From Oscillospiraceae bacterium (GTDB lineage Bacteria > Bacillota > Clostridia > Oscillospirales > Ruminococcaceae): DNA of 52,452 nt. Position 1 is the stretch's first letter, and each line of letters starts with the position of its first letter. Where the stretch lies: NCBI GenBank assembly GCA_009782265.1, contig WRJM01000002.1:1-52452 (forward strand), read 5' to 3'. Positions 27,101-51,527 of this stretch are shown here, piece after piece. Position numbers and translations under genes: made by a program. The notes beneath the pieces are model-generated. The model was not told where the DNA came from. It made no database searches and was given only the letters and a program-made list of their open reading frames with translations.

Positions 27101-27161
27101 AAATTATCAGAATTTTTACTTTTTATCATAAAACAATCCGCTTCAATCCCGTTGCTTCTTT

Positions 27162-28813: not shown

Positions 28814-28843
28814 TAATTCCCCTCTTTTGAGGGGGATTATTTT
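28814..28843 (+). terminator. Rho-independent terminator
   Basis: AATCCCCCTC-type stem (ATTCCCCTC/GAGGGGGAT) with TTATTTTAT tail, after the Pro/Gln-rich gene. Confidence 0.8.
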
Positions 28844-28932
28844 ATACTAATACCGATTATAAAAGCTCTTAAAAAATCCGTATAAAAAGCTTGCGTTTAT
28901 GGGTTTTTGTGCGGATTTTTTAGAAAGCTTTT
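28844..28932 (+). mobile_element. MITE-like element, truncated copy C (right end missing)
   Basis: Matches the family from ATACTAATACCG through GCGGATTTTTTAGAAAGCTTTT, then diverges; the terminal ~13 bases are lost. It lies between the terminator at 28814 and the eda stop. Confidence 0.75.
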
Positions 28933-28960
28933 CATGCCTGTTTATTGGGCATTTCCTAAG

Positions 28961-35801: not shown

Positions 35802-36764
35802 ATGAACAACTTTTTATTCTTAGGCGGAGATAAGCGTATGATTAGCGCGGCAAAGCGGTTAAGTGAAAATTACGACTGCTTTATTTACGGATTTGACCGT
35901 CATTGCTTCAGCGATAACGGCGGCAGTCCGCACGGCGAATCCATTGAAACCTGCGAACCGGAAATAACCGTTCTGCGCGAAATCACCAAATGCAAAAGCC
36001 TTGTGCTTCCTCTGCCCGCGTCCTCAGACGGCGTTCATATAAACGCACCTTTTTTTAAAGAACCGCTCCCGGTAAAATTAATTCCGGAAGCCGTTTATAC
36101 GGGAGGCGTTGTTTACTGCGGAAAAACGTGCCCTGCTATTCAAGCCGTCTGTGAAGAAAATAATTTAAAGACTGTGGATTATTTCGAGCGTGAAGAGCTT
36201 ATTGTAATGAACGCGCTTGTTACAGCGGAGGGCGCGCTTGAAATTATAATGAATAAGCTCCCGATGACGATTTTCGGCACTGAAATTTTAATCACAGGGT
36301 TCGGGAGAATCGCTAAAATTTTAGCAAGATTATTAATCGCAATGGGCGCGAAAGTAACGGTTACAGCAAGGAAATATGCAGACCTTGCGTGGGCGGAAGC
36401 CGCAGGGTGCAAAACTGTGCACATTTCATGGCTGACCGATACGCTTCCGAAATACGATGTAGCGGTAAATACCGTACCGGCGGCAATTTTTGACAGTTCC
36501 CGTATTAAAAAGTTCAAAACCGGCTGTCTGATTGTTGACCTTGCGTCAAAACCGGCAATATCAGACAACGATACAGAGCTGGCAACCCAAAAAGGTTTGC
36601 ATGTAATCCGGGCATTATCCCTGCCGGGAAAAACCGCACCGGTTACGGCGGGAACGGTAATTGCCGACACCATTATGAACATACTCGCAGAAAATGCGGA
36701 AATTTCAGAAAATCAAAAAAATATAAAAATAACAAAAAACACAGGAGGGTTAGAAAATGCTTGA
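35802..36764 (+). CDS. dpaA: Dipicolinate synthase subunit A
   Basis: The Rossmann-type oxidoreductase subunit of the enzyme that makes dipicolinic acid in the mother cell for spore cores. 320 residues. The N-terminal FLGGDKRMISAAKRL segment and LPLPASSDGVHINAPF (about 70-85) are typical, with a second nucleotide-binding motif ILITGFGRIAKILARLL (about 163-180). ATG 35802 follows GAGG. It overlaps the dpaB start by 8 bases, so the pair is normally coupled, but dpaB is interrupted here. Confidence 0.93.
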   Translation: MNNFLFLGGDKRMISAAKRLSENYDCFIYGFDRHCFSDNGGSPHGESIETCEPEITVLREITKCKSLVLPLPASSDGVHINAPFFKEPLPVKLIPEAVYTGGVVYCGKTCPAIQAVCEENNLKTVDYFEREELIVMNALVTAEGALEIIMNKLPMTIFGTEILITGFGRIAKILARLLIAMGAKVTVTARKYADLAWAEAAGCKTVHISWLTDTLPKYDVAVNTVPAAIFDSSRIKKFKTGCLIVDLASKPAISDNDTELATQKGLHVIRALSLPGKTAPVTAGTVIADTIMNILAENAEISENQKNIKITKNTGGLENA

Positions 36765-37098
36765 TTTATCGGGAAAAACCCTAGGGTTTGCCGTGACGGG
36801 TTCATTCTGTACATTTGACGCGGCGTTTGCGCAGGCGCGGATTCTGCGGGCGATGGGAGCAGAGCTTGTTCCGATTATGTCAAAAAACGCTTTTCATACA
36901 GATACACGTTTCGGGGACGCGAAGAAACGCGCAGAAGAATTGGCTGATATTTGCGGTACGGACATTATCAACACTATTGCGGGGGCAGAACCGCTCGGTC
37001 CTTCAAAAAGGCTTGATGTAATGTTAGTTTGCCCTTGCACAGGAAATACAATGGCGAAGCTTGCGGGGTCGATTACCGATACAGCAGTATCGGTTTAA
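36757..37098 (+). CDS. dpaB: Dipicolinate synthase subunit B, 5' half (interrupted)
   Basis: 113 codons encoding the flavoprotein-like N-terminal part of DpaB: GKTLGFAVTGSFCTFDAA near residues 5-22, PLGPSKRLDVMLVCPCTGNTMAKLAG (about 79-104). Family members continue after ITDT with PV.M and about 85 more residues. Here the frame leaves DpaB similarity after Ile-Thr-Asp-Thr and stops 5 codons later (TAA 37096). The missing part lies at 45843-46119 on the opposite strand. As it stands, the product should be inactive. Confidence 0.93.
   Translation: MLDLSGKTLGFAVTGSFCTFDAAFAQARILRAMGAELVPIMSKNAFHTDTRFGDAKKRAEELADICGTDIINTIAGAEPLGPSKRLDVMLVCPCTGNTMAKLAGSITDTAVSV
37074..37094. other. Left recombination site (attL-like) in dpaB
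   Basis: TACCGATAC (37074-37082) is shared, in inverse orientation, with the right break at 46111-46119. On the non-dpaB side the site extends to a palindrome, ACCGATAC-AGCA-GTATCGGT (37075-37094). The crossover must lie within the 9 shared bases, because the flanks differ on both sides. Confidence 0.75.
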
Positions 37099-37157
37099 TG
37101 GAAACAAGAACAGATGCTGATTGGCGAATCCAAGCAGGAGCAAGTTGTTTTTATTTA

Positions 37158-38411
37158 TTACAATCCCTTCAGCATTATCATCGCTTTTATAATCCACCGC
37201 GCCGCGCCGTTAAACCGATAACCCGTAAATCCGGTTTCTTTTAAAATAGCTTTAATATCGGCTTCGTTTAAATTTAAATTCAACAAGCCGTCCAAGCCGC
37301 CTCGTTCTGCTGAAATTTCCCGCACATAATCCCAATAAATTCCGCTGTAACCAAAAGTAGTAGCATAGGTCGCAGGGTCAGCAACGGCTTGTTCAACCAT
37401 TTCTTCGGTGTCCTCATAAAAAAGACTGCGCCCGTTATCATAAAGCGGATAGAACGATTCGCCGCCGTTTAATTTTTTAATCGCTATATTAGATAAATGG
37501 CGGTCATCCTGCCGCGTGATAAAATCTAACAGAATCATACGGGCAATGTCGTCTTTATACTGCGGGCGGGCAGCAATCAGGTTTTGATATTCATTATCAG
37601 AACGCGCACCGTCGAAAAGCCTGCGGAAATGAACGATATACTCTTTCGAAAAATCGTACAGGAATGCGGAAAACACTGTGTTTTTGTCTGTGCGGTATGC
37701 GGGACAGCAGGGAACACCAAGTTTCTGCGCCAATAAATACACAGCTACTTCAGATTCTACATCTGTTGTCAATGGGCTGATTCGCTGTTTATATATGCCG
37801 TACTGCCCGTTGTAAACGCCGTATCGTTTAATATTATAACCTTCCGGCGTATCAATACTGTCGCCTGTTAAATCTATGCGCTGATGAAACACCGAATCAA
37901 ATACAACGGTAATCACGAACTCAAAACGTTCATCTTCAGTATTGGCAACCCATAATAAATCTTTAGGATGTATGCCGCGGGTTATTTCAACGATTCGCAG
38001 AACATCATAATGGGATAAACCGCAACGGAATAAAATTCGCTCGATATCGCGTCGGTCACGGCTTACTACACGCTCGGATAAAAACTCGGTAAATTGTTCC
38101 GGCGACCATGAATCATTCCCGTGCGTATATGTCGCAACAACTTCATTAAAGTTTGGCTGACTAAATACAACAGAATTAGCGGCGTTAATCGCACCTATAA
38201 CTTCATTTTCCCATTTTAAAAACCGAACGGCAACTTCTACCGTTTTTTTCTTTTCTCGTCCGTCGGCAGGTTTTACAGCATTTGAGGGTATTTTATACGA
38301 TTTACCATCCTTAAAAGCTCCGGGGATTTTACCTTCCTCGCAAAGCACACGCACACGGCGGTCGGATATTCCCCATTTATCTGACGCTTGTCTGGCAGTT
38401 ATATATTCCAT
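37158..38411 (-). CDS. HTH-HipA-like kinase fusion protein
   Basis: About 417 residues from the Met at 38411 (MEYITARQASDKW; the frame opens 4 codons earlier). The N-terminal MerR/excisionase-type winged HTH (about 1-48) reads GISDRRVRVLCEEGKIPGA. The C-terminal part is a HipA/CtkA-like Ser/Thr kinase: an ATP-site Lys in YGIYKQ (about 208), catalytic loop RQDDRHLSN (about 300-308) and metal-binding YDNG (about 324-327). HipA kinases are usually toxins paired with a separate HTH antitoxin; here both functions appear in one chain. It lies 60 bases from the left recombination site, so the HTH could also act as a recombination directionality factor. That role is speculative. Confidence 0.75.
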   Translation of the reverse strand: MEYITARQASDKWGISDRRVRVLCEEGKIPGAFKDGKSYKIPSNAVKPADGREKKKTVEVAVRFLKWENEVIGAINAANSVVFSQPNFNEVVATYTHGNDSWSPEQFTEFLSERVVSRDRRDIERILFRCGLSHYDVLRIVEITRGIHPKDLLWVANTEDERFEFVITVVFDSVFHQRIDLTGDSIDTPEGYNIKRYGVYNGQYGIYKQRISPLTTDVESEVAVYLLAQKLGVPCCPAYRTDKNTVFSAFLYDFSKEYIVHFRRLFDGARSDNEYQNLIAARPQYKDDIARMILLDFITRQDDRHLSNIAIKKLNGGESFYPLYDNGRSLFYEDTEEMVEQAVADPATYATTFGYSGIYWDYVREISAERGGLDGLLNLNLNEADIKAILKETGFTGYRFNGAARWIIKAMIMLKGL

Positions 38412-38423
38412 ATTCAAAAGCAT

Positions 38424-38653
38424 ATCCTCCTCGTATAATTATAATAACACGATTCGGAATAAATGTCAAACGCATTATTCCGAACAGCGCAATTTATAAT
38501 CCGAAAAAACTAACCCCGCTGTTTAAAACAGCGAGGTTATACTAATCCCTCATTAAAAGCTTTCTAAAAAATCCCTACAAAAACCCATAAACGCAAGCTT
38601 TTTATACGGATTTTTAAGAGCTTTTATAATCGGTATTAGTATTAAATTATTCA
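38424..38653. other. Intergenic segment occupied mainly by MITE copy D
   Basis: It contains a small AACCCCGCTGTTTAAAACAGCGAGGTT hairpin (about 38511-38537) directly followed by MITE copy D. No gene is seen. Confidence 0.55.
38539..38642 (-). mobile_element. MITE-like element, full copy D (inverse orientation)
   Basis: 104 bp, ATACTAATCCCTC ... CGGTATTAGTAT, the reverse complement of copies A, C and E. It forms a large inverted repeat with copy E (45757-45860) around the 7.1 kb between them, giving a possible second route of inversion by homologous recombination. Confidence 0.82.
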
Positions 38654-39322
38654 TTATTGAGATTGCAATTGATACACGCGCTCCAATGATAACTTTGTAT
38701 GTTTTGCGACTTCTTCGGGCGACATTCCCGCCTGTAGCAATGAAACTGCTGTTTCTAATTTGTTTTCTTCGCGACCCTCTTGGCGACCCTCTTGACGACC
38801 CTCTTGGCGACCCTCCTGACGACCCTCTTCACGACCTTCAGTTTTCATAACTCTTCCGTAATCTTCCATATTGAACTCTGTGAATAACATATTTAACACT
38901 TCCGAACTGTTTTCTTTCAGGAATTGGGGCAGAATGTTCTGACTGATGCAATTCTTGATTGCATTTGTCATAGCTTCCTCAAGCGGTATCCCGTTCGCTT
39001 GGTTTTTACGGATTTCAGCGATAAACGCTGCGTATCCGGCAAGGTCTGTGTTTTTACGAACAATCTCGTCGTTGTGACCTTTGTTGATGTTCAGAACTTT
39101 AACCTCCAACTCCGCACGACAGCCAAGCGGGGAGGTTGTATAAACGTCTTTAAAAGCGTCGGACAGTTTTAGCGTTTTTTCATCGGGGAAGTCATTTTTG
39201 CCGTTATAAAGCACAATAAACTCCGGACGGGGAATTTTAACCAATTTTGTAGCGTAAATGCTTGTGTCTTCAATAATCGACTCATAAACGCGCGCAAGGT
39301 AGATAAACAGGCGCAAAGGCAT
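38654..39322 (-). pseudogene. Rpn/PD-(D/E)XK transposase-like protein, 5'-truncated
   Basis: 222 residues corresponding to the middle and C-terminal part of the Rpn family of PD-(D/E)XK nuclease/transposase proteins: NENMPLRLFIYLARVYE at the start (family form HQ-x-x-NxNMPLR), PEFIVLYNG, LEVKVLNIN, and a C-terminal helical tail with five EGRQ/EGRE repeats. The frame upstream meets a stop 9 codons before the Met, right where family similarity begins, so the N-terminal nuclease residues are lost. Probably inactive. It is divergent from the tyrosine integrase gene. Confidence 0.7.
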
Positions 39323-39428
39323 ATTCTCATTTACAGATGCTTGGTTTTATTATAGCACGTTTCCGCGTTATTGTCAATTATTATACAAACGGAAAAATAT
39401 ACGGAGGATAATAAAGCTTTATCTATTC

Positions 39429-39457
39429 TTGACAAATTTGGTTATAATAGCTATAAT
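39429..39457 (+). promoter_or_regulatory. Strong sigma-70 promoter of the tyrosine integrase
   Basis: TTGACA (39429-39434), a 17-base spacer, TATAAT (39452-39457). A second TATAAT lies 8 bases earlier. The distance to the integrase start is about 75 bases. Confidence 0.8.
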
Positions 39458-39531
39458 ATATAAAGTTGTAACGAGCAGAATGTATATATTTACATGCAAT
39501 TGTTACAGAAAAAATCGGAGGATTCAAAAAT

Positions 39532-40638
39532 ATGGCAGGAAAACGGGCAAACGGCGAGGGCTCTGTCCGCCTGCGTCCCGAAGGACGCTGGGAAGTTACA
39601 ATGATGATAGGTTATTATGATGACGGTAAACCGAAACGCCACAGCATATACGGCAGAACGCAAAAATCAGCAATTGAAAAAGCCGCCGAATACCGCCGGC
39701 AGATTGAAAACGGAAAAATAATCGACAAACGGCTCACACTCTCCGAATATGCCGAACGGTGGTATAAAGAATATAAAGGGCAGGTTAAGTTATCGACTTA
39801 TGCGGGATATAGATTTACGCTGATGATTATTAATCAAACATGGGGTAAAAAGCGGCTGTGTGACATTAAACCGTCAGATGTCGAAAACGGCTTGAAAAAA
39901 ATGGTGGAAGAAGACCGTAGCCGCTCTGTTGTTACAAAGGTCAAAGCAATGCTTCATCAGATTTTACGCAAGGCAGAAGCGAACGGCATTATTGACAAAA
40001 ACCCTGTTCCGCTTACGCAGAAAACTAAGATGAAAACGCCACCGAGCAAAAAAGACAGCCTTAGTTTAACCGAAGTGGGCATATTATATCAAGAGTTGCC
40101 GGATACCCGCGCAGGGCATGCAATCAGGCTTTCGATTGCCTGCGGTATAAGAACGCAGGAGCTTCTTGCATTAACACCGGAGCATATTGATTTGGAGAAC
40201 GGCGAGCTTTGTATTGAACAGGCTATTTTTATGGTCAGAGGTTCGGTTCATCTCGGCGAAACCAAATCAGCGGCGGGTGTGAGAAAAATCCCTATTCCGC
40301 CGATTGCAAAAGAGAGCGCGGTGTTCCTGAAAAACAACGGTAAAAAGTTTATTTTTCAAGGGAGAAACGAGAAACCGATGAATCCGAGCACGTACCGTAA
40401 TCATTATAACGCGGCGTTTGAAATGGTTAAAGACGTAAGGCTTTTACCCCCTCATTGTATGCGGCATACCTATATCACGCTCATGCAGGCGTCCGGCGTC
40501 CCGGTTGAAACCATAAAAACTTTAGCGGGGCACTCGGATAAAACCACCACGCTCGGGTATATGCACATCAAGGACGAAGTGACTGCACAAGCGGCGGTTG
40601 CGCTGTCGAAAACCTTGGAGCAGGCGAGTAAAAAATAG
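39532..40638 (+). CDS. int: Tyrosine recombinase (phage/ICE-type integrase)
   Basis: 368 residues. A short beta-rich arm-binding N-terminus (to about 60), a SAM-like core-binding domain (about 62-160) and the catalytic domain with the full set of residues: Arg in GIRTQEL (about 207), HCMRH (about 308-312), GHSD His (about 333) and nucleophile Tyr in TLGYMHI (about 343). ATG 39532 follows CGGAGG. Integrates or excises an element by tyrosine chemistry. No neighbouring excisionase is obvious. This second recombinase in the segment between the dpaB halves could belong to an older inserted element. Confidence 0.9.
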   Translation: MAGKRANGEGSVRLRPEGRWEVTMMIGYYDDGKPKRHSIYGRTQKSAIEKAAEYRRQIENGKIIDKRLTLSEYAERWYKEYKGQVKLSTYAGYRFTLMIINQTWGKKRLCDIKPSDVENGLKKMVEEDRSRSVVTKVKAMLHQILRKAEANGIIDKNPVPLTQKTKMKTPPSKKDSLSLTEVGILYQELPDTRAGHAIRLSIACGIRTQELLALTPEHIDLENGELCIEQAIFMVRGSVHLGETKSAAGVRKIPIPPIAKESAVFLKNNGKKFIFQGRNEKPMNPSTYRNHYNAAFEMVKDVRLLPPHCMRHTYITLMQASGVPVETIKTLAGHSDKTTTLGYMHIKDEVTAQAAVALSKTLEQASKK

Positions 40639-40669
40639 CTGGATGCAATCAGAGCTTTTTCACAAAAAT

Positions 40670-40702
40670 AAGCAAGATTGTTAATTTCAACCTTGCTTTT
40701 AT
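40670..40702. terminator. Bidirectional terminator
   Basis: AAGCAAG ... CTTGCTTTT hairpin between the convergent integrase and retropepsin-like genes. Confidence 0.65.
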
Positions 40703-40719
40703 CGTTATTAAATCATATT

Positions 40720-41199
40720 TTATCCCTGTTCAAGCGAATATATCTGAATAGGCACTTCGCCCGTGGACAGTTCCGGTGTACTTTTACGTTCCGTTAAACT
40801 CAATTCGCCCGAATCGTAGTCAATACTTCTGTTAAAGTATTTCAGAATATCGCTCCCGAAAAAGCTACGGAGTGTTGTACCCAATGCGAAGAATACACGG
40901 CAGTGCTGTAATTCGCGGTCGCCGAACTTGATTGATACATTTTTAATGTACTGCAACGGCGTTCTGTTCTCGTCCATCGCCAATGTCGCACCGCCTTCAT
41001 GGTGCGGACAGGATTTCAAGTATTCTTCTGTAAAACCAAGACGTTCTAAATCATCACAACTTAATGTTGTAAAGTCCGAACCTGAATCATATTTGAAACG
41101 AACACTATCAAGTGATTTTCTGTCACCTGTCATAACATAACATTCAAACTCAACACGTCCCAAACCGTTTGGCGGAAAATCAATGGTTATTGGCAACAT
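40720..41199 (-). CDS. Retropepsin-like aspartic protease
   Basis: 159 residues. The single Asp motif is DSGSDFTTL (about 38-46; DSG in place of DTG), followed by the hydrophobic FFGSDILKYFN segment (about 112-122) that matches the second conserved strand of retropepsin-like folds. One lobe per chain implies an active dimer. It overlaps its upstream partner by 13 bases, so the two are coupled. Substrate unknown; bacterial members of this group are poorly characterised. Confidence 0.65.
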   Translation of the reverse strand: MLPITIDFPPNGLGRVEFECYVMTGDRKSLDSVRFKYDSGSDFTTLSCDDLERLGFTEEYLKSCPHHEGGATLAMDENRTPLQYIKNVSIKFGDRELQHCRVFFALGTTLRSFFGSDILKYFNRSIDYDSGELSLTERKSTPELSTGEVPIQIYSLEQG

Positions 41200-41426
41200 A
41201 TTTCAAGACCTCCGATTTGCGGAGTATCGTTGAATCCCTCAAAAACTAATTTGCCACCCATGCTATCGCCGATTTCTTTGGCTTTTGCATACGCTTCTGT
41301 TTTGTTTGGCGTTACTAAAATAATATCACCCATTGTCCGATTATTAGGTACTGTGCTGATATTTACCATAACAATCCACTGTTTCGGATACTTCATACTG
41401 GCTTCGCCACTCCACATTCTTTCCAT
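41187..41426 (-). CDS. Small partner protein of the retropepsin-like protease
   Basis: 79 residues, starting at 41426 with GGAGGG upstream on the minus strand. It contains KQWIVMVN, GDIILVTPNKTEAYAKAKEIGDS and KLVFEGF segments: an alpha/beta small domain reminiscent of DUF5678-like proteins that often accompany aspartyl proteases. The family match is tentative. Its overlap with the protease gene implies a joint function, possibly as inhibitor, targeting factor or substrate. Confidence 0.55.
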   Translation of the reverse strand: MERMWSGEASMKYPKQWIVMVNISTVPNNRTMGDIILVTPNKTEAYAKAKEIGDSMGGKLVFEGFNDTPQIGGLEICCQ

Positions 41427-41796
41427 TACAATCCCTCCGATTATATATTTACTTTTATTATCAATATTATAGCATAATTGAAGATTTAAGTCAATGAATT
41501 TTTAAGTAAAACCGTGGCAGAAAATGATTTTATAACCGAGCTTTATTTGTAAAAAATAATTAGTTACAGTCAAAATTACAGTCAGTTTGAACAAGGCTCA
41601 AACGTTGTTACAATGCGGTTTTTCCATATTCTGGAAATTGCTTTTTCAAAGCTGGTTACAGTCACAGTTACAGTCAGACCCTATCATCAAAAATACGACA
41701 TACGCTTGAAACCGCTGTGTTTTCGGGCGTTTTTCGTGTTTATTCGACAGATGTTTAAACGAAAACCTGTAGAAAAGAATTCTATCTGTATTTTTA
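41427..41796. other. Intergenic region with four TTACAGTC repeats
   Basis: TTACAGTC occurs at 41564-41571, 41576-41583, 41656-41663 and 41668-41675, as two pairs with 12-base spacing and about 80 bases between pairs. This is iteron- or arm-site-like. No gene start with a ribosome site is seen. The region ends at the damaged start of the dockerin gene. Confidence 0.5.
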
Positions 41797-44769
41797 GTGG
41801 TTGCTATTTGCTTATCCTTTGCAAACATAACCGCTTTTGCCGCAGATGAAGACATGAAAGCCGTTTTGAAAGCATACTACGACAAATTTTCGTCATCGTG
41901 GATGGCTTCTTCGGCAGCTGACACCGCAATCGCCGGTTATCCCGAAAAGCTCGGCGGTTTAATGAGCTATGGTAACAAAGGAATACAAATTTTCCAAGAT
42001 GCTCATACGTACGCAGGACTTGTTCTTCAAAAGAACGAAGAATTAGTTGACGAAAGCGAATACACAGCTTCTTACTTAATGCTTAAAGACGCATTTGAAG
42101 ATAAGCTGGTTAAAAGGAGCAGAAAAGACCTTGAAGACCTTATCACTTCTGTAGCGCATATTCTCAGGGTTGACGCTAACGGAAACCAAAACGCGCTCAA
42201 CGCGGACAATGACCCAAAATACAACCGCGACGCTTTTGATAAGCTTGTAGGCGCGGAATGGGACGCAAAATCTTATTTACAGTCAGAGGGAACAGACACC
42301 CGCTATATCACCAACTTGTATGATGATTTAGACGCGGTTAAATCTCCCACTGAATTAGAAACAGTTACGAAAGCAATGTTCAGAGCGACTTTCAACGAAT
42401 ATTCAAAATTAGTCGAAACACGCGGAAAATACACAGACGAACGCCGCGGCGCTAACGGAGAATACTCGTGGGGTCAAACATGGTACGACATTGACTCCGC
42501 CGGTGGTCTTGACGGTGCGCGCGGAGCTAAATATGACACTTTCGAGCAGTACAGAGATTTAATAAACGCCCGTTCTTCCGAAAACACATCTATTAAAGAA
42601 TTTGTTGATGCTCGTAAAGACATGCAGACATGTATTGATAATGTTAAAGGTTTCACACCTGACGCAACCGGCGGTCTTGCATTATCAAGCACCCGTGCAA
42701 ATCTTGCAAATATCCATAACCAAATCGTATGGACATTAAACGTAAACGGTACACTTGCGGCTCAAAATTATAAGCTGAACGGTACTACCATTACCGGTGT
42801 AGACGACGGCGATAAAATAGACCCGACGCAAGGAACAGGACCTCTCACTGTGCTTTACGCACTAATCGCCGCAGACCTCGGAAAGAGTGTAAAAAACACT
42901 CCCGCAATAAGCGACCCTGCAATAGGTACCTGCCCGAACGCTTCAAGTACAACTATTGGAACAGGCTGTCACCTTGCCGCCGATTGTAATTCAACCCAAG
43001 GACCAAATATGAAACAATACTGCTCCCCTACGGGAATGACCAACCACAAAGACACTTGGACTTACGAATGTATTGGTGAAAATGTAACCTTGGTTGGTTG
43101 CGGTGTTGCTGGTTGTACAAACGAAACTGACACGAGCGCGACAGCGAGCGACCCTTGTGGAGGTACTGTTACCGTTACCGCCACTTGCGTCAATGCGAGT
43201 GCAAACTTTTGGGAACCCTGCGACCCTGCTGACGCGACGCACTGCGGCGCTGACAATACTGACGCCATCCACTGCGGCGGGCACGGCGATTTATCAATCG
43301 CGGCAGTAACAGACGGACTTTTCACAAGTGATAACAGAATCACAAACGGAAACGGTTTCACCGTATATTACAACACGCTTGTAAACAACGGAACAAACAA
43401 CTATATCTACCTCGGCGCTTTGAAATCTAACGCAAATGCCACCGAAAGAAAAGCTTACGAAGACAGCCTGACCGGTTTCTGGAAAGGCACAAGAACGCTG
43501 ACCTTTACAGCTAACGTAGACCTCGGAATGAGATTGGCACAGTTCGTAACTATCCTTCCCGACGGATATGCCTTTACAGCAGAAAAAGCGCAAGCGGAAG
43601 CTCCCGCAGCTTTTGACGGTGCGAACCCTGTAATCGTAAGCGGTATGGACGTAAACAGAAGATTTACAGCTTATAATAACCCTGTGGGCAACATAACGAA
43701 TGACGGACATAAAAGCCAAACCGATAAACCTTTAATTTCTTTCCTGCTTGACTTTTATGCGGACGCAATGGATAAAGACGCTTCCGACATTCTCATTGAT
43801 GAGGGTGTAGGTACCCCGAAATACTGGGATAAGGCTGTCACCGCATACAATGCACGTTACACAGGCGACCTCGGATTTTATGAACTTCCGACTTCTCCTC
43901 AATCTCAGGCACGTGAAAAATTAGCTTTTGCAGGACGTATTATTCTGTATACGATTAATGACTGCAAGCTTGAAGGAACAGGAAGCTGGAAAACTTTACT
44001 TGAGCTTAGGAATTTAATCGCCAGCGCACAGCTTGAGTATGAACGCGGCAAGGGTATTCCTTTCTTCGCACTCGGAACATTTGACGTTACGACTGCTTTA
44101 CTCGCTGCAACTGACGCGGCAATCGTTACAAGCAGAAATAACGAAAGAGACGGCGAAACTATAACCAACAGATGGAACGCTTTAAACACAGCTTTAGTTA
44201 AATATACAAAGACACTTAACGCGTTCCCTGTAAGCGTACAGGAAGCTTATGAACTGATTCAGGAAGCTTATGACGCGGAAGATGACGACCTTTTAGAACT
44301 CGCTGAAAAATTAGCGGCTACGATTCTTACCGTAGACCCTGACCAAACAGGACTTGTTTGGGAAGCAGGCGACATTCTCCTCAACGGACGTTTCTACAAG
44401 GGCGGATTAACGACAACAGATTTCCCTGCTGTTACTGCAACTGATTACACTAAGATTAGTAGCGGAAACATCACAGACATTGAGGGCACACTCGCGGCTT
44501 ATAACGCTTACAATGCGCTTAATACGGCACTTAATCCCCCCGAACCTGAAAAACCTGACTTCCTCCTCGGCGACGTAGACGGCGACGGCAAAGTTACCGC
44601 AACAGACGCACTTTGGATTCTCCAGTATGTAGTAGGTTCAAGAGAATTCGACGAAGACCAGGAAGCGGCGGCTGACGTAAACGAAGACGGCGAAATTAAT
44701 GCAACAGACGCACTTTGGGTTCTGCAACTCGTTGTCGGCACAAGAGAATCTTTAGGCAAAGCAGACTAA
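41797..44769 (+). CDS. Large secreted protein with C-terminal type I dockerin; start codon damaged
   Basis: 990 residues from GTG 41797. Upstream codons AAA AGA ATT CTA TCT GTA TTT TTA (from 41773) continue a perfect signal peptide (KRILSVFLVVAICLSF...AFAA), but the codon before AAA is TAG, where ATG would be expected, and there is no ribosome site. The mature part is mostly helical (about 20-370) with a Cys-rich segment (about 378-500; at least 14 Cys) and no recognised enzyme domain. The C-terminus (about 925-985) is a clear dockerin: DVDGDGKVTATDALWILQYV and DVNEDGEINATDALWVLQLV. The next gene encodes a cohesin-like anchored protein. Probably a structural or adhesive cellulosome-type component. 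Confidence 0.8.
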   Translation: MVAICLSFANITAFAADEDMKAVLKAYYDKFSSSWMASSAADTAIAGYPEKLGGLMSYGNKGIQIFQDAHTYAGLVLQKNEELVDESEYTASYLMLKDAFEDKLVKRSRKDLEDLITSVAHILRVDANGNQNALNADNDPKYNRDAFDKLVGAEWDAKSYLQSEGTDTRYITNLYDDLDAVKSPTELETVTKAMFRATFNEYSKLVETRGKYTDERRGANGEYSWGQTWYDIDSAGGLDGARGAKYDTFEQYRDLINARSSENTSIKEFVDARKDMQTCIDNVKGFTPDATGGLALSSTRANLANIHNQIVWTLNVNGTLAAQNYKLNGTTITGVDDGDKIDPTQGTGPLTVLYALIAADLGKSVKNTPAISDPAIGTCPNASSTTIGTGCHLAADCNSTQGPNMKQYCSPTGMTNHKDTWTYECIGENVTLVGCGVAGCTNETDTSATASDPCGGTVTVTATCVNASANFWEPCDPADATHCGADNTDAIHCGGHGDLSIAAVTDGLFTSDNRITNGNGFTVYYNTLVNNGTNNYIYLGALKSNANATERKAYEDSLTGFWKGTRTLTFTANVDLGMRLAQFVTILPDGYAFTAEKAQAEAPAAFDGANPVIVSGMDVNRRFTAYNNPVGNITNDGHKSQTDKPLISFLLDFYADAMDKDASDILIDEGVGTPKYWDKAVTAYNARYTGDLGFYELPTSPQSQAREKLAFAGRIILYTINDCKLEGTGSWKTLLELRNLIASAQLEYERGKGIPFFALGTFDVTTALLAATDAAIVTSRNNERDGETITNRWNALNTALVKYTKTLNAFPVSVQEAYELIQEAYDAEDDDLLELAEKLAATILTVDPDQTGLVWEAGDILLNGRFYKGGLTTTDFPAVTATDYTKISSGNITDIEGTLAAYNAYNALNTALNPPEPEKPDFLLGDVDGDGKVTATDALWILQYVVGSREFDEDQEAAADVNEDGEINATDALWVLQLVVGTRESLGKAD

Positions 44770-44873
44770 TCCTAAACTAACAAAAATCTAAGAACAATCA
44801 AAAAAATTCCGAGCGGGGCGCTCGTCAAGAGTGCCCCGTAATCAGGAAAAAATACTTTGGAGGTATTTAAACA

Positions 44874-45569
44874 ATGAAGAAAATTTTATCAATTTTGGTA
44901 ATCGTGGCTTTAGCGGCTATGTTTACAATCAGCGTTTCCGCACTTACATCTGATGTGGAAGTAGACGGCGATACAGTAAAAGTTTACTTTTACGCTGATG
45001 AAGACGGCGACATCTCAGGTTCTTTTGAAGTTGCTTACGGCGACGGACTTGCATTTGATTTCGTTGACACTAACAGCCGTGCAGGCGACCCCGGCATGAA
45101 CCTTTGGGCTTTCAATGAAGCAACCGGACTTCTTGCAGTAGCAGGAACGGGCTTTGAAGAAGGCGACCTTTTAGCAACATTTGAACTTGAAATTATCGAC
45201 GCTGACGGCGACATTTTCATCTCTTTCGTAGGTTTAGACGGCAATTTTGACGGCATTGAAATCGAATACGACGAAAAAGACATAGACCTCGAACCCGGCG
45301 AATTAGTTGACCCCGGAACAACTGACCCCGGAACAACCGACCCCGGAACAACTGACCCCGGAACAACGCCCGAAATCGAAGACGACTGCGAATGTGAACT
45401 CTGCGACACATGCGGCGGATGCATTGACGCTGATTGCGATTGCACAGCAGCAGGTCACTTCATTTGCGAATTCGGCGGAGACCACAACCCTCCTTCCGGC
45501 GTAGTATTTGCTGTAATCCCTGCACTTATGGCAGCAGGCGCGGCAGTAGTTACCCGTAAAAGAAAGTAA
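44874..45569 (+). CDS. Cohesin-like surface-anchored protein
   Basis: 231 residues, ATG 44874 after TTGGAGGTATTTAAAC. Signal peptide (1-24), then a ~120-residue beta-sandwich resembling a cohesin (GSFEVAYGDGLAFDFVD, GDLLATFELEI, ISFVGLDGNFDG). Four PGTTD repeats (about 142-160) and a Cys cluster (CECELCDTCGGCIDADCDC) follow, with a C-terminal NPPSG-like motif, hydrophobic helix and RKRK tail that would anchor it to membrane or wall. It lies 100 bases downstream of the dockerin protein gene, making them a plausible binding pair. Cohesin identity is by pattern only. Confidence 0.6.
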   Translation: MKKILSILVIVALAAMFTISVSALTSDVEVDGDTVKVYFYADEDGDISGSFEVAYGDGLAFDFVDTNSRAGDPGMNLWAFNEATGLLAVAGTGFEEGDLLATFELEIIDADGDIFISFVGLDGNFDGIEIEYDEKDIDLEPGELVDPGTTDPGTTDPGTTDPGTTPEIEDDCECELCDTCGGCIDADCDCTAAGHFICEFGGDHNPPSGVVFAVIPALMAAGAAVVTRKRK

Positions 45570-45597
45570 TTTAAACAATCGTTTGAATTTACACATA

Positions 45598-45628
45598 AAG
45601 AACCCCCTTTAAAGGGGGTTCTTTTTTG
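45598..45628 (+). terminator. Strong rho-independent terminator
   Basis: AAGAACCCCCTTT/AAAGGGGGTTCTT perfect 13-base stem followed by TTTTT. Confidence 0.9.
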
Positions 45629-45756
45629 TTTAATTATTCTCTTTGCTTTATGATTATCGCGCCGCTTATGGCAATTACTGCCGCCGGCAGAAGTGGTAAA
45701 CCTCATAAACGGTCAGGCACGGAAACCCGACCCTATTGAAAATACGGGTTTATTTT

Positions 45757-45860
45757 ATACTAATACCGATTATAAAAGCTCTTAAAAATTTGTACAAAAA
45801 GCTTACGTTTATGGGTTTTTGTGCGGATTTTTCAGAAAGCTTTTAATGAGGGATTAGTAT
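45757..45860 (+). mobile_element. MITE-like element, full copy E, at the 3' end of the dpaB fragment
   Basis: 104 bp, ATACTAATACCG ... GGGATTAGTAT. On the minus strand the dpaB 3' half runs into its terminal repeat, so the last codons and the stop of that frame are MITE sequence. Confidence 0.85.
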
Positions 45861-46119
45861 TAATATAGGCTCAATCTGCCGTCCTTCAAGTGCCGCGTTC
45901 ACTGTTTCCGGCACAAGCGAAAAATCGCAGACGAGCGATGTAGGCTTCTGTTCATAATCGTCTTGCTTAAAAGGGACAAAGTAATAAGGTTTATAATTCA
46001 TCAGCGCACCTATATTCTTCGCTGAACCCGCAAGCGCATCGTTCGTGGCGATACAAAGAACAACAGGGCGGTTGTTACGGATATGGGATTTTACTGCCAT
46101 GGTGACGGGGGTATCGGTA
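45843..46119 (-). CDS. dpaB: Dipicolinate synthase subunit B, 3' half (inverted, interrupted)
   Basis: From the shared site at 46119 the minus strand encodes TDTPVTMAVKSHIRNN and continues ALAGSAKNIGALMNYKPYYFVPFKQDD, KPTSLVCDF and PETVNAALEGRQIEPIL, the complete C-terminal part of DpaB. The first in-frame Met is at 46100, but it lies inside the conserved ITDTPVxM motif, so this is not a real start. Joined to the half at 36757, it gives about 195 residues, the normal DpaB length, with no gap or duplication. The last ~6 codons come from MITE copy E. Confidence 0.93.
46111..46119. other. Right recombination site (attR-like)
   Basis: GTATCGGTA, the inverse of TACCGATAC at 37074. The left flank is dpaB sequence; the right flank leads into GC-rich hairpins (about 46141-46190) and the recombinase stop at 46208. 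Confidence 0.75.
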
Positions 46120-46207
46120 GGTAGATTGCGGAAACAAAATCCCGCCGGAGTGCATCCGGAGGAAATTCACCGCTTTCGCGGCGGAGGGAGCGTATTCCGA
46201 TGCTGTA

Positions 46208-47860
46208 TTAAACCGCTCCCATGAGAAAAATATGTGCTTCCTCCCCGTCCCATTCAATCCGCTCTATACAGCGTTTTATGAAATTTCGCTTATTAATGAC
46301 CGATAACTCTCCGGCGTTTTCTTTAAGGTATCGTAAGCCCTTTTCGATTTCAAAAACCGCAGTGCCTGCGGACGCAAGACCGCCTTCGGAGGCGTTTCTC
46401 TCCATTAAATTCAATTCAACCGTTAGTTCTTTTATTTGGGAGCTTAATTGTGAAATTTCAATATTAATTCGTTTGTGGGTTTCGTCATCAACTCCCTTTG
46501 ATAAAGCATTAATCAGCTTTTGGATTGAAGTTTCTTTCTCGGTGATTCGCTTATTAATCGCGGAGCAGTTCTCCGAAAAGACGGTGTTGATGTCGTTGAT
46601 TTTCTTCCGAAGCTCTTCTAACTGAGCGTTTACTGCCGATTTAGGGACATCATAATTAAGTAATAAGCCAAAGATTTTTTCGTCGATTAAAAGCCCGTTC
46701 AGGTTTTCACAACCGCACAATTGCTTTTTACTTCGTTCCTTGTTTTCGCACATGTATGAAAAAGAACGTGTTTCAAGGGAAGAAATTTTGCCGTCGGCGG
46801 TTCGCCGGTGGTATTTAGGGCGCATATAAGCACCGCATTTGCATTTAATTACCCCCGACAACAGAGCGGTGGAGTTATAAACCTTTCTGAAACCTTTCCG
46901 AGCGTTGGTTTGGAGGATTTCCTGAATCTCGACCCATTGCTTTCCTGAAACGATACCTTTGTGCTTTCCTATGGTGACAATCCACTTGTCCATAGGGTTT
47001 TTATTTCTCTGCTTGTCCCCCTGCGTCTTATTATAAACGATAAAAGCGGATTTTCCATCGGCTTCCGAATCGTCACAGCATAAATCGCTGCCGTTTGACA
47101 GGAAATAATGATAAGATTCTTTGTCGGCAATGCAGTAGACAGGATTCCCGAGAATCTGTCTTATTGTGGCAGATGTAAATTTTTTGCCTTTTTTTGAAGT
47201 TATACCGCTATTGAGCAGGTATGTTTCAAGTTTATTAAGACTCTCAAATTCTAAAAATTTATTAAATATAGCCTGAACAGTCGGGAATTCTTCTTTGTTT
47301 ACTTCAAGACGATAAGAAGTGCGCACCTTATCGCCCATATCACCCAAACAAATAACTTCGTCTTTAACCGAATCATACCCGGTCGGGGTTGTCCCGCCGA
47401 GCCAGCGTCCTGTTCGTGCAAGCATGTGCATATTATCCCTGACGCGCTCGGCAATGGTTTCGCGTTCAAGCTGGGCGAATACCGAAGCGATGTACATCAT
47501 CGCCCTGCCCATCGGGTTAGATGTGTCGAACTGCTCTTTTATACAGATAAATGATATATCTTTGACGTTCAGCTCTTCTATAAGCGTTGAAAAATCGCTG
47601 ACGTTTCTGCTGATTCGGTCAAGGCGGTAAACGACGATATAATCGAATTTTCGGTCGGCGTTGTCCTTCATCATTTGGATGAAACGCGGGCGGTTCATAT
47701 CCTTGGCGGAGAAGCCTTCGTCCTCGTAGATTGAAATGTCCGCTTCTTCAACATCTTGGAAATGCTTTTTAATGTAATCGGTACACATTTCAATTTGATT
47801 ATCGATTGATTCGCCCTTGCCGGTGAACTTGGATTTACGCGAGTAGATAGCAAACCTCAT
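46208..47860 (-). CDS. Large serine recombinase
   Basis: 550 residues, TndX/TnpX-like. Catalytic resolvase domain with Ser7 (AIYSRKS), the YRLDRISRN motif (about 79-87) and FAQLERE (about 129-135). It continues through a recombinase domain (about 165-270), a zinc ribbon (CKCGAYMRP about 343, then a CGC pair about 384) and a coiled coil (about 405-480). Such enzymes join attP and attB through a 2-bp crossover and need a directionality factor for the reverse reaction. The gene ends about 90 bases from the right dpaB break, the usual place for the integrase of an element inserted in a gene. It is the best candidate for cutting and rejoining dpaB. Confidence 0.93.
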   Translation of the reverse strand: MRFAIYSRKSKFTGKGESIDNQIEMCTDYIKKHFQDVEEADISIYEDEGFSAKDMNRPRFIQMMKDNADRKFDYIVVYRLDRISRNVSDFSTLIEELNVKDISFICIKEQFDTSNPMGRAMMYIASVFAQLERETIAERVRDNMHMLARTGRWLGGTTPTGYDSVKDEVICLGDMGDKVRTSYRLEVNKEEFPTVQAIFNKFLEFESLNKLETYLLNSGITSKKGKKFTSATIRQILGNPVYCIADKESYHYFLSNGSDLCCDDSEADGKSAFIVYNKTQGDKQRNKNPMDKWIVTIGKHKGIVSGKQWVEIQEILQTNARKGFRKVYNSTALLSGVIKCKCGAYMRPKYHRRTADGKISSLETRSFSYMCENKERSKKQLCGCENLNGLLIDEKIFGLLLNYDVPKSAVNAQLEELRKKINDINTVFSENCSAINKRITEKETSIQKLINALSKGVDDETHKRINIEISQLSSQIKELTVELNLMERNASEGGLASAGTAVFEIEKGLRYLKENAGELSVINKRNFIKRCIERIEWDGEEAHIFLMGAV

Positions 47861-47965
47861 TTAAACAGTCCTTTCTGTATTCAATCACCGTATATAAATT
47901 TCACCCTCATTTTACTTTTACATTATAATATCACTTTGTATCATTGTTGTCAAGTGAAAAGATAA

Positions 47966-48091
47966 TTATTTCGGTTTGGTCAAGAGGGCTTCAATAAGCC
48001 TGATTAATTCTTCGCTTAATACAGATGTAAACTTGTCTGCGTTTTCAGGTTTTGGTTTATGTATAATAATATTAATATCTTTTTTTCGCAT
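47966..48091 (-). CDS. 41-residue protein upstream of the recombinase
   Basis: ATG 48091 with GGGGGAGGG about 9 bases upstream. The product begins MRKKDINIIIHKPKP and ends in an amphipathic helix (SEELIRLIEALLTK). Small ORFs of this kind are common next to large serine recombinases in clostridial elements. A directionality factor or regulator is possible; no proof is visible. Confidence 0.5.
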   Translation of the reverse strand: MRKKDINIIIHKPKPENADKFTSVLSEELIRLIEALLTKPK

Positions 48092-48171
48092 TATAAAAGC
48101 CCTCCCCCTTAATCATTTTATTGTATGTTTAAGTGATAATATACCTTTGTATGATTATAAAAATACTTTTA

Positions 48172-48520
48172 TTACCCGATTTCGAGCTCTTGTTTCTTTT
48201 CGTGAAGGAACTCTTTCCCCTTTTCAATTTCTTTATTACGCTCAGTAATCGCCCTGTTTTCATTACCGCGCTCAGTCGGTATTCCTTTGCGTTCAAGCGC
48301 CGTTATATTTTTTCCCAGATGCTTAGTCGGTATCCGTTCAGCCGCACACTCCATATCCTGAATCTTATAGCTCTCATGTGAAAACCTTTCAGGCAATCCT
48401 TTTCTTTCAAACTCGCGGTTTAAGCTATCAGCCCATTTTTCGCGCCATAAAGTAACATTCTCTCGTTTGTCCAAATCACGGTTCTTTGCCTTAAACCCCT
48501 CACTGTCTACATTCCACTTG
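48172..48520 (-). pseudogene. MobA/MobL-type relaxase, C-terminal fragment
   Basis: The frame encodes NVDSEGFKAKNRDLDKRENVTLWREKW, NREFERKGLPERFSHESY, ERIPTKHLG, ALERKGIPTERGNENR: the segment following the catalytic domain of MobL-type relaxases. The catalytic N-terminal part (Tyr and His triad) is absent because the reading frame joins a truncated coupling-protein gene near 48515. A remnant of conjugative DNA processing. Confidence 0.7.
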
Positions 48521-49300
48521 AAGTTTTATGCTTAGAGCCATTTTATTATCAGAAAAATCTTTTATTTCTATAAGTTGGCTCATATAAATTTTTGCTGTTT
48601 CATCTTTATCATCAACAATATTCTTCATTAACACCGCAAGCGGCGTTGTTTGGATTTTATTCAGTGAATCGATGAAACCAGAATCGGTATTATAATAGTA
48701 AATAAGCGCGCCTGTAAGGATGTTTTGTGCTGATTCTATCCAAAATTCGTTTTCTCCGTTTTTGTCCGGCGGCATTGGTATTAATATATGTACCAACTCT
48801 TTTATCATCGGTATAACATATTCATCGGGAGCTTGCCGAATCATATAAAACGGGTCATATGTAAAGACATTTTCTGCTCCGTTCATAAAATTCAATACTT
48901 TGAAAGGACGCTTTGACCTTTCCAACGACTTATAATATTTCTCTGCGGAACCTTCCAAATCGATTACAACCATTGTATCCCGCCACGTTTCCATGGTCGG
49001 ATTGACAAAACAGGTTGATTTTCCGTCTCCGGTTCTTCCGAGAACGCAGATGTTTCCGTTCTGTGTTGATGATTTCAATACTTTTTCGTAATACTTCTCA
49101 CCTAAGTAGAAACCCTCATCGGACGAAAGAACAGCCCACGGGACATTGTTGCCTTTTCTTATGTCGCGCTGGTCTTGAAGCGATTGTTTTTGCGGATTTT
49201 TTCCTCTTAATTTTTTAGTTTTTCTGAAGATTATTGCACCGTTATTTATTATATCAAGAAAGACGCCTGAAATATTTTCAAAATCTTTTAGTTTTCCCAT
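48500..49300 (-). pseudogene. TraG/VirD4 coupling protein, N-terminal fragment
   Basis: 266 residues, about half of a type IV coupling ATPase. Walker A GRTGDGKST (about 88-96), VVIDLEGSAEKYYKS (about 111-125; Walker B-like), then FTYDPFYMIRQAPDE and WIESAQNILTGALIYYY, all TraG-like. It ends abruptly after KMALSIKLQ, running into relaxase sequence in another frame, so a deletion fused the two genes. ATG 49300 lacks a strong site. Marks a decayed integrative conjugative element. Confidence 0.75.
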
Positions 49301-49342
49301 GATTTTTTTCCTTTGTATTTTTTGGGGGGGTGCGGGGGCAGC

Positions 49343-49510
49343 TTATTCGCTGCCCTCCAAAAGATTTACCATGATGCAAACCGCAGTAATCACGTTTACC
49401 GCAATACATGTCGCAGTTTTTACGTTCTTCAGAAGTTTTTTTGTTTTCTTTTTCTTCTTTTTAGATTTTTCTTCATGGGTATCCTTGTTTTTACCTTCGT
49501 GTTTATCCAT
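49343..49510 (-). CDS. 55-residue Lys-rich small membrane protein
   Basis: ATG 49510 with AAAGGAGG 10 bases upstream. A charged Lys/Glu N-terminus (1-25, including a run of Lys) is followed by one hydrophobic segment (about 31-50) and LLEGSE. Small membrane ORFs like this are frequent in clostridial conjugative elements. Function unknown. Confidence 0.6.
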   Translation of the reverse strand: MDKHEGKNKDTHEEKSKKKKKKTKKLLKNVKTATCIAVNVITAVCIMVNLLEGSE

Positions 49511-49589
49511 TATTGCTAACCTCCTTTCAACTTAGGCGGTGTCGGGGGCTTGTGACCCGTTCTGCCGCATTACCAAGGCATTTGCCCTG

Positions 49590-49794
49590 TCACTCTACGT
49601 TATTTCTTTTTGCTTTTGGCGGTGCTAAAATTAAAATTTCATTGCAATTATTACAACTAAAATTTACATCACGTGTTACGCGTACGCTGGCTTCGCATGA
49701 GGGGTAAAAATTCAGCATTGAATTTTGAGTGCAAATCCTCAAGACCGCTTATAACGGGAGCGAGGCTGATTTCGGTATTGGCTAATTCTTTCAT
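49590..49794 (-). pseudogene. Small zinc-ribbon protein with a frameshift
   Basis: ATG 49794 follows AGAGGAATTT. About 31 codons run MKELANTEISLAPVISGLED... to EFLP. In the +1-shifted frame the sequence continues SCEASVRVTRDVNFSCNNCNE to a stop at 49590, giving a Cys-x(n)-CxxC zinc ribbon. The shift falls at a run of five A on the plus strand (49706-49710), so it is either a point deletion/insertion or a sequencing error. The intact form would be a ~67-residue element-encoded protein. Confidence 0.5.
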
Positions 49795-49828
49795 AAAAAT
49801 TCCTCTTTTTTATTATTTGTTAAAATCC

Positions 49829-49856
49829 TTGACAAGAAAATTTAAAGTGTTATAAT
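49829..49856 (+). promoter_or_regulatory. Strong sigma-70 promoter
   Basis: TTGACA (49829-49834), a 16-base spacer, TATAAT (49851-49856), reading toward the AT-rich genes at 50011. Confidence 0.75.
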
Positions 49857-49937
49857 AAAAATAATGTTAAAAATATTTCGTTATAATTTTTAAATATGAT
49901 ATGATTATGAAGTACATAAAGTATAACGTCAATACTT

Positions 49938-49982
49938 TTTTTAGTAAGTAAAAATATTTTTACTTTTTTTACTTACTAAAAA
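49938..49982. promoter_or_regulatory. Nested palindrome in the leader of the 50011 gene
   Basis: Perfect 17-base arms TTTTTAGTAAGTAAAAA (49938-49954) and TTTTTACTTACTAAAAA (49966-49982). The left arm also takes part in a smaller palindrome, GTAAAAATATTTTTAC. It could form alternative hairpins or an operator, about 80 bases after the promoter and 28 before the start codon. Confidence 0.6.
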
Positions 49983-50010
49983 TAAATAAATTATACAAAA
50001 AAGGTACATA

Positions 50011-50445
50011 ATGAAAGAAAAAGTTATTTTAAAAGCAAATAATGAAACAGAATATAAACCGGTTTTATGCTTCGGTACATTTTTCATTTTAATTTGCCAA
50101 TCACGAAAAGGACTTAATTCCGGTAAAAAATTTAAAGGCACTGAAGCTGATTTATTTAATGCACTCATGCATATCGCTTTTGGAAATGATGAATATTCAG
50201 TTAACCCGCATTATTTAGATTCTTATAAAAGTTGTAAATCAAATCAAAAAGTCCCTTGCCAAAACGCAGAGGTACTTAGAGACTTTAATTTAAAATACAA
50301 AGATAGCAACCATTATGAAAAATTAATAAAAAATATTTACGATAAATTACTTCCACTCCTTGATATTTCTGAGGATAACAGACTTGTAAAGAGGATTATT
50401 GTTCTTATCAATTCGGATGTTTATGACGATTATAATGAAATATGA
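50011..50445 (+). CDS. Unknown protein, first of three frames in one register
   Basis: 144 residues, ATG 50011 after AAAAAAGGTACATA. Mixed alpha/beta, with LCFGTFFILICQSRKGLNSG near residues 19-38 and a helical C-terminus. No family recognised. It is AT-rich compared with neighbours, suggesting transfer. The TGA stop (50443-50445) is followed immediately, in the same reading frame, by the ATG of the next gene. Confidence 0.6.
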   Translation: MKEKVILKANNETEYKPVLCFGTFFILICQSRKGLNSGKKFKGTEADLFNALMHIAFGNDEYSVNPHYLDSYKSCKSNQKVPCQNAEVLRDFNLKYKDSNHYEKLIKNIYDKLLPLLDISEDNRLVKRIIVLINSDVYDDYNEI

Positions 50446-50850
50446 ATGAATAGTAAAACTAAATTTAAAATCTCAGCAACACAAGAGTTTACAAAAAATG
50501 AATTATTAAATAAAATAAGTGATATTAATCAACCGCATTTTCTGTTAGATGTTTATCAGTATATCCTTAATAACCGTCCGGATAACAGAGTTGGGAGAGC
50601 CACTTATGAAGATTGGTGTCCTGTAGTTGCAGGAGCAAAATCTAATTCAAAGCGCCCGTTTACCAATGGTCCGGATATTTCATTAATCCACCGCGAAATA
50701 AACATTACACGGGATATTAATGAAATCAATTCGATATATCAAGAGAACAAAATAGTACGTATTTCCGAAAATAATTATACAAAAAAAGGATTATTAGATA
50801 TAATTAACGCTTTTTATGACGATTGGAAAAAAGCAGAAATTGAATTATAA
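50446..50850 (+). CDS. Unknown protein, second of three frames in one register
   Basis: 134 residues from ATG 50446, directly after the previous TGA and in the same frame, without its own ribosome site. Features: helical start, FLLDVYQYILNNRPDNRVGRATYEDWCPV (about 32-60), and a long charged C-terminal helix region. Unrecognised. It ends with TAA at 50848, after which the same frame stays open. Confidence 0.55.
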   Translation: MNSKTKFKISATQEFTKNELLNKISDINQPHFLLDVYQYILNNRPDNRVGRATYEDWCPVVAGAKSNSKRPFTNGPDISLIHREINITRDINEINSIYQENKIVRISENNYTKKGLLDIINAFYDDWKKAEIEL

Positions 50851-51240
50851 AAAATAAAACACCCTATTAGTACGATTGACGATATTGATGCTTTAGATAT
50901 AGATTTAATCGACAATATCCGTGAGCGTTTTTGCGGATATATTGATAATATCCTTGAAATATCTAACATTATCCAAAAGAACATTGTTAAAAGACAGCTA
51001 TTTTATGACGGATTAAAATTACGTATTGAAACATCTTATAATGATTTGGAAAATCTCGGAGAAGAATATTGGTTTTTTGAAGAATTATTTTCAAAAGATG
51101 CCATGGATTTTGATTGTGATAATATTGATGAAGTATCTGAAGAAGATTTTGCTTTATGGAATAGAAAATTTACAATTTTTAAGAAATTACGTTTATTCAT
51201 AAAAAATTATATAGACGAAACAAAGGAATTGTTTGATTGA
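50851..51240 (+). CDS. Third open segment in the same register, no canonical start
   Basis: The frame is open from 50851 to the TGA at 51238, 129 codons. It encodes an acidic helical protein (STIDDIDALDIDLIDNIRERF, then SNIIQKNIVKRQ, and a Glu/Asp-rich C-terminus). The first ATG is only at 51046, but similarity of composition begins at 50860, so the real start may be ATA/ATT (50854-50866) or it is read as part of the preceding gene. Function unknown. Confidence 0.5.
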   Translation, partial: KIKHPISTIDDIDALDIDLIDNIRERFCGYIDNILEISNIIQKNIVKRQLFYDGLKLRIETSYNDLENLGEEYWFFEELFSKDAMDFDCDNIDEVSEEDFALWNRKFTIFKKLRLFIKNYIDETKELFD

Positions 51241-51380
51241 ATATAATAAAACACAAAACACATTGCAAAATATTGGTCAACAACAATTAAACACGTCGAA
51301 CAAAATGTTATAAATCATGCAAAACACCTTGCATATTTTGTATTTACATGATATACTATAAACAACGAGGAGGAGTTTAT

Positions 51381-51458
51381 ATGTATAGGAACGTAATTAA
51401 ACTGCTATATAACTGGAAATTACGTAAAAATAAAAAGCCGCTTATTATAGTTGATTAA
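51381..51458 (+). pseudogene. N-terminal fragment of an AAA/DUF4143-type ATPase
   Basis: An excellent AGGAGGAG site precedes ATG 51381, then 25 codons: MYRNVIKLLYNWKLRK and NKKPLIIVD. Proteins of the AAA_14/DUF4143 group start this way and continue LII-x-GARQVGKT. Here the frame ends just before the Walker A motif, where a perfect 16-base inverted repeat begins. A truncated remnant or a short leader peptide; the family link rests on few residues. Confidence 0.4.
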
Positions 51459-51480
51459 CTTAAAAAGTTAATCAACTATA
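51446..51480. repeat. Perfect 16-bp inverted repeat
   Basis: TATAGTTGATTAACTT and its complement around a 3-base loop, covering the last codons and stop of the 25-aa frame, about 48 bases before the RNase Y start. No U-run follows, so it is an operator or truncation scar rather than a classic terminator. Confidence 0.6.
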
Positions 51481-51527
51481 TAGTCTCAAATATCTGTTAG
51501 TTCATATAAAAAAGAAAGAGGAAAACA

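Follow-up and report, generated by a model that had tools for sequence, protein, structure and literature searches.

A recombinase-bearing element within the sporulation gene dpaB of an Oscillospiraceae genome: a shared integration site and an inverted order of the gene halves in one assembly

What has split the sporulation gene dpaB, which resistant spores require, on contig WRJM01000002.1 into two oppositely oriented halves, and could the gene be made whole again? The whole contig (C2; 52,452 nucleotides), hereafter the window, was analyzed; it belongs to assembly GCA_009782265.1, an Oscillospiraceae genome bin of 1.84 Mb in 155 contigs that is 88.5% complete. A preliminary description, based on the letters of the window, had proposed that the DNA between the halves is inverted during sporulation by a large serine recombinase and that dpaB is thereby restored. 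The underlying observation is right, and the element is real and of a recognizable kind. The inversion is an unproved peculiarity of one assembly.

The gene is broken in frame at one place, Ile-Thr-Asp-Thr, and its halves lie in inverted order on the contig (Table 1). The N half reads Ile-Thr-Asp-Thr up to position 37082, the C half begins Thr-Asp-Thr-Pro-Val-Thr-Met, and the codons common to both are Thr-Asp-Thr; reading the sequence at both breaks upheld the earlier statement that nothing has been lost or duplicated there. A search of the bin for a second, intact dpaB returned nothing beyond these two halves, and, because the bin is incomplete, the missing part of the genome may hold one. 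The C half groups with the host lineage and not with genome G154. The ratio of nonsynonymous to synonymous substitution rates (dN/dS) of the halves resembles that of three intact pairs, a weak comparison, since dS is saturated and 2 of the 12 values are not computable.

Both breaks carry the 9-bp sequence TACCGATAC, inverted with respect to each other (37074-37082 and 46111-46119), as had been noted. This 9-mer is weak on its own and not decisive, because it occurs four times in the window when both strands are counted. The outer arms around a central AC form a dyad in which 14 of 25 positions are paired, a figure equaled by 2 of 2,000 random window positions. AC is also all that attL and attR share across the four relatives in which both sites are readable (G148, G172, G173, and G192), and it is the likely crossover point; the extent of the segment between the breaks (9,028 bp) agrees with a crossover there. 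Beyond the dpaB N half, the arm (AGCAGTATCGGTTTAATGGAAAC) is similar to its counterparts in G172 and G173 and, less closely, to those in G148 and G192. Given this likeness and the dyad, the recombinase flank and the other outer flank belong to one attP, as the preliminary description had supposed. A paired attL and attR with a common core inside an inverted repeat is present at the locus, and, judged from their sequence, both junctions are genuine recombinase sites.

The recombinase (550 residues) faces the dpaB C half, its 3' end lying about 100 bp from the break, and its Resolvase, Recombinase, and zinc-ribbon domains bear out its earlier identification. A vegetative-type promoter-like site lies about 60 bp before its start; the recombinases at loci L082 and L157 have TTGACA-17-TATAAT, likewise read by eye. 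The protein does not fit the small Hin/Mpi-type invertases (27.9 bits with the Mpi model, against a cut-off of 272), and the sites in the window, though inverted, are an attL and an attR with differing arms.

A dpaB match is present in 57 of 71 genomes of the genus, in 8 of which the gene is broken at the same place (i.e., the window's genome, G148, G173, G172, G192, G154, G157, and G174). Both halves are on one contig and strand in G148 and G173 (about 40 kb and 7.3 kb apart, respectively) and on different contigs in G172 and G192; G154, G157, and G174 have the C half only. All eight carry an orthologous large serine recombinase whose 3' end lies at the dpaB C half, those of the other seven being 42 to 74% identical to the one in the window. 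At an E value of 1e-50, the recombinase is found in 9 of the 71 genomes, namely, these eight and G159, in which dpaB is intact and the recombinase lies inside another gene that we presume to be spmA (here, the spmA-like gene); the window's genome and G172 have one further match each. The search of related genomes that the preliminary description had called for thus yields dpaB both interrupted and intact at the same codons: the empty site, preceded by the same upstream genes, occurs in G150, G190, G155, G191, G151, and G159, and the uronate-gene neighbors of dpaA are kept in six relatives with intact dpaB. In a family sample of 148 genomes, G032 carries a 2.7-kb direct-order element with a shorter recombinase outside the dpaB clade described below, and G016 has a C half only, starting at the window's break place. 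Split dpaB looks rare in an order sample of 394 genomes: the window aside, two genomes there are partial-looking, G265 (two matches; best E value, 1.1e-27) and G444 (one match; 2.6e-16), and G431 and G485 score low; dpaB in G064 and G066 is cut by contig ends.

A scan of species genomes gave 308 recombinase loci, of which the best 80 were analyzed. Ten of these 80 abut dpaB, nine at its C half and one (L157) at its N half; seven of the ten are in genomes already counted, the new ones being L156, L157, and L188. At L157 (3516-5511) the element is reversed: the recombinase adjoins the N half, and the C half, which carries the opposite arm, is on a separate contig (L240). As the arms differ little, direction may be governed by the central dinucleotide. 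Others of the best 80 lie next to feoB (29 loci, e.g., L192; one representative checked, below the cut-off for TIGR00437 and above it for FeoB_C), next to birA (8 loci; one checked), at ABC-transporter-like genes (20 loci), or at mixed targets (7 loci), the genes of the last two groups being named by eye only. In a midpoint-rooted FastTree phylogeny, the recombinases at dpaB make up a single clade of 11 members (support, 0.709), and the pair from the spmA-like gene is nested in the feoB group; feoB and the spmA-like gene are presumably both from membrane families with a Gate-like region. Judged by these targets, the family is one of gene-specific integrases in general.

The split gene, the paired att sites, and the recombinases tied to dpaB therefore lead us to regard the locus as a sporulation gene-intervening element of the skin/vfbin kind, integrated in mid-dpaB by a large serine recombinase and, if the assembled order is real, with restoration by inversion; we give this reading an even chance. 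The recombinase would have used the middle of dpaB as attB, leaving attL and attR inside the gene, and, with its vegetative-type promoter, would keep the element integrated and the gene broken during growth. Reversal would fall to a directionality factor acting in the mother cell, as in the skin element of Clostridioides difficile. In this genome only, the reverse reaction would be an inversion of 37083-46110 that rebuilds dpaB, because attL and attR face each other; the site geometry agrees with what had been stated about the product of their recombination. The inversion would lose no DNA and would leave attP beside the recombinase, which would stay in place because its gene is outside the segment. 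By analogy with vfbin and its kin, the dpaB recombinases probably have a developmental role. That dpaB is restored during sporulation by a reversible, recombinase-driven 9-kb inversion without loss of DNA, and not by excision, is a bolder reading, and we consider it unlikely.

Known elements support the comparison in part. According to excerpts of papers that cite it (PMC4191935, PMC10747680, and PMC5595907), vfbin interrupts spoVFB (dpaB) of Bacillus weihenstephanensis KBAB4. It is a recombinase-bearing element in the same gene; it belongs to another lineage, and its direct order is implied by excision. The interruption of dpaB in the window by a recombinase-bearing element, as of spoVFB by vfbin (PMC4191935), sustains the parallel that the preliminary description had drawn between the two. 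The skin element in sigK of C. difficile has a large serine recombinase that is constitutively expressed and a directionality factor made in sporulation, and, on a plasmid with attP and attB in opposite orientation, the recombinase needs no partner to invert the DNA between them (PMC5025042, in excerpt). The promoter-like site in the window resembles its constitutive promoter, whereas its target is sigK and not dpaB, its order is direct, it is excised, and its directionality factor is known. The gin element in gerE of Bacillus cereus ATCC10987 is non-phage and has a 9-bp common junction sequence with a central dinucleotide in an inverted repeat; it differs from the window in its gene, its size (28.6 kb), its direct order, and its three recombinases (PMC5595907, in excerpt). 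Other dpaB genes interrupted within the genus (G148, G173, G154, and others) share with the window an orthologous recombinase, the same codons, and similar arms, but are in direct order in G148 and G173. Excision elements named in the literature excerpts lie in sigK, spsM, spoVFB, spoVR, gerE, and yabG, and the available text of the open-licence papers mentions neither a natural inversion that restores a sporulation gene nor an interrupted dpaB in the window's lineage.

Several observations weigh against a developmental switch in the window. Relatives of the recombinase also sit at genes without a sporulation role, such as feoB, and a sporulation gene as target is therefore, alone, no proof of regulation. 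No sigma-E or sigma-K promoter was found at the window recombinase in a scan of 12 recombinase upstream regions, in which the two sigma-K-like strings are at L152 and L157. Gene clustering found no small gene common to most of 13 sampled element regions, and no directionality factor was recognized there. Recombination directionality factors are diverse. The inverted order is seen once, in the window, where it depends on a single contig from a metagenome bin, with one assembly for the species; in all three relatives with both halves on one contig (G148, G173, and G032), the order is direct. Relatives with direct-order halves around a similar recombinase, which the preliminary description had itself named as telling against its proposal, thus do exist, and inversion is not supported as the evolved route of dpaB restoration, although it may occur in this genome. 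The fragmentary relaxase and VirD4-like protein, the lack of a recognized directionality factor, and the single occurrence of the inverted order would also fit a real rearrangement without a switch: an ordinary insertion would have undergone inversion or decay, leaving dpaB beyond repair. We consider this quite improbable: the recombinase, the two att sites, and the two parts of dpaB remain open and resemble those of relatives, the dN/dS values point weakly the same way, and the B. cereus gin element, which has no phage genes, still excises according to the excerpt of PMC5595907.

The contig adds to the doubts, and an ordinary excisable element that was misassembled would account for direct order in the relatives. 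In that case the true order would be direct, and the C-terminal side would have been turned round by an assembly error somewhere from 37.1 to 45.8 kb, copy 1 of a miniature inverted-repeat transposable element (MITE) being the likeliest place. This MITE, about 102 bp long and as a rule bounded by TAA at both ends, has 46 matches in the genome, and copy 1 has exact matches of 67 and 60 bases to two of 30 copies compared, which makes a misjoin there conceivable. For copy 2, on the other hand, the longest identical stretch in that comparison is 39 bases, and composition between the dpaB halves is within the host range. The flanks match in 15 of 18 MITE copies parsed; copy 1 has TTA, an uncommon flank, on both sides, and TTA stands on the right in 1 of the 17 other copies. 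The matching TTA flanks mildly favor continuous sequence at copy 1, but that one other copy also has a long exact match and TTA on both sides. The right end of the contig is a further concern. The rny gene there (51528-52451) is an additional one, with 67% identity to its counterpart on contig C5, which belongs with those of close relatives (G151, 87%; G155, 85%; G190, 84%); the window copy clusters with G154 (0.978), and its tetranucleotide pattern is unusual, 1 of 38 host segments scoring lower. This suggests a chimeric contig end or a transfer. GC content is 28 to 29% from about 49.5 to 51.2 kb, and four segments tested within 46.2-49.9 kb fit host composition. The foreign-looking rny makes the contig less trustworthy, but it is over 3 kb past the recombinase and says nothing decisive about how the halves are ordered. 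On balance, we regard misassembly as rather unlikely.

If the inverted order is real, it may have arisen by rearrangement after an ordinary insertion or from a one-step attP-by-attB reaction within the chromosome. The former needs two further breakpoints, none of which was located. An origin by MITE-driven inversion was rejected, there being no MITE match to the right of the recombinase on the contig, and an inversion between the two MITE copies inside the segment would not turn the dpaB C half round. The tyrosine integrase was also considered as the bringer of attP to the vicinity of dpaB and set aside: the best repeat between 40580-41800 and 48000-51530 is 12 bp, which is not above chance (50 shuffles; mean, 11.4; maximum, 14).

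The same genome may run a second, related rearrangement. Another recombinase, 44% identical to the one at dpaB, splits the spmA-like gene, the N part of which is on contig C92 and the C part on contig C70 (L153:4190-6380 and L279:2360-2527). The gene product has a Gate domain only and no NCBIfam match. In G159 (L152) the spmA-like gene is split in direct order, its halves 5.9 kb apart on one strand. The dpaB recombinase clade and this second interrupted sporulation-type gene suggest that the handful of cases described so far may understate how common programmed rearrangement is in Clostridia. The developmental rearrangements that we found described in spore formers involve loss of DNA, a price that a dying mother cell can pay; an inversion, if true, could be undone and might in principle take place in cells returning to growth. 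Orientation aside, the recombinase clade at dpaB belongs to a gut-bacterial genus sampled here largely via metagenome bins.

A viral collection contains related arrangements, with no match to the exact attL and attR patterns. Contig L362 (431-3124) carries a dpaB N part broken at the same codons, with phage-type holin and amidase genes further on; just upstream of it, directly behind another serine recombinase, is a dpaA C part. A dpaA C part also follows a recombinase of the window's family on L292 (8001-10170). Locus L315 has a weak dpaA-like match (21%).

TABLE 1 Features at the dpaB locus of the window (HTH, helix-turn-helix; ORF, open reading frame)
Feature	Position	Strand	Basis
dpaA, dipicolinate synthase subunit A, intact	35802-36764	+	NF006162, 237 bits; TIGR02853, 179 bits
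dpaB N-terminal half	36757-37082 (ORF 36757-37098)	+	TIGR02852 positions 1-105; dpaB frame ends at break
attL	37074-37105	+	TACCGATAC and outer arm ending GGAAAC; arm likeness, dyad with attR arm
First gene inside left junction, HTH and kinase-like	37158-38423	-	HTH_17 and PI3/4-kinase below Pfam cut-off; no NCBIfam match
MITE copy 1, TTA on both sides	38539-38658	-	Flanks read; 67-bp and 60-bp exact matches to other copies
Rpn-family gene	38654-39322	-	TIGR01784 below cut-off
Tyrosine integrase	39532-40638	+	Phage_integrase PF00589
Dockerin-bearing protein	41797-44769	+	Dockerin_1
Second secreted-looking protein	44874-45569	+	No family match
MITE copy 2, TAA on both sides, reaching into dpaB stop	45741-45860	+	Repeat match, flanks read
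dpaB C-terminal half	45843-46110 (ORF 46100-45843)	-	TIGR02852 positions 107-187
attR	46111-46135	-	TACCGATAC and outer arm beginning GTTTCC
Large serine recombinase, outside segment that would invert	46208-47860	-	PF00239, PF07508, PF13408; dpaB clade in tree
Vegetative-type promoter-like site, TTGACA-17-TATTAT	47922-47953	-	Read by eye, spacing computed; consensus match only
Relaxase fragment	48172-48474	-	Partial matches to TraA/MobQ models
VirD4-like coupling protein fragment	48500-49300	-	Partial match to conju_CD1115

The first gene inside the left junction had been called HipA, a label that we drop, as the gene has no HipA family match and only the two sub-cut-off matches listed in Table 1. 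A relative of the Rpn-family gene adjoins the recombinase in G154 (46% identity; L081). Besides the two MITE copies in the segment, the window has copies at 27159-27265 and 28833-28936. Elsewhere in the window, 12208-13098 encodes a collagen-like Gly-X-Y repeat protein with a Cys-rich start, as judged by eye from its translation.

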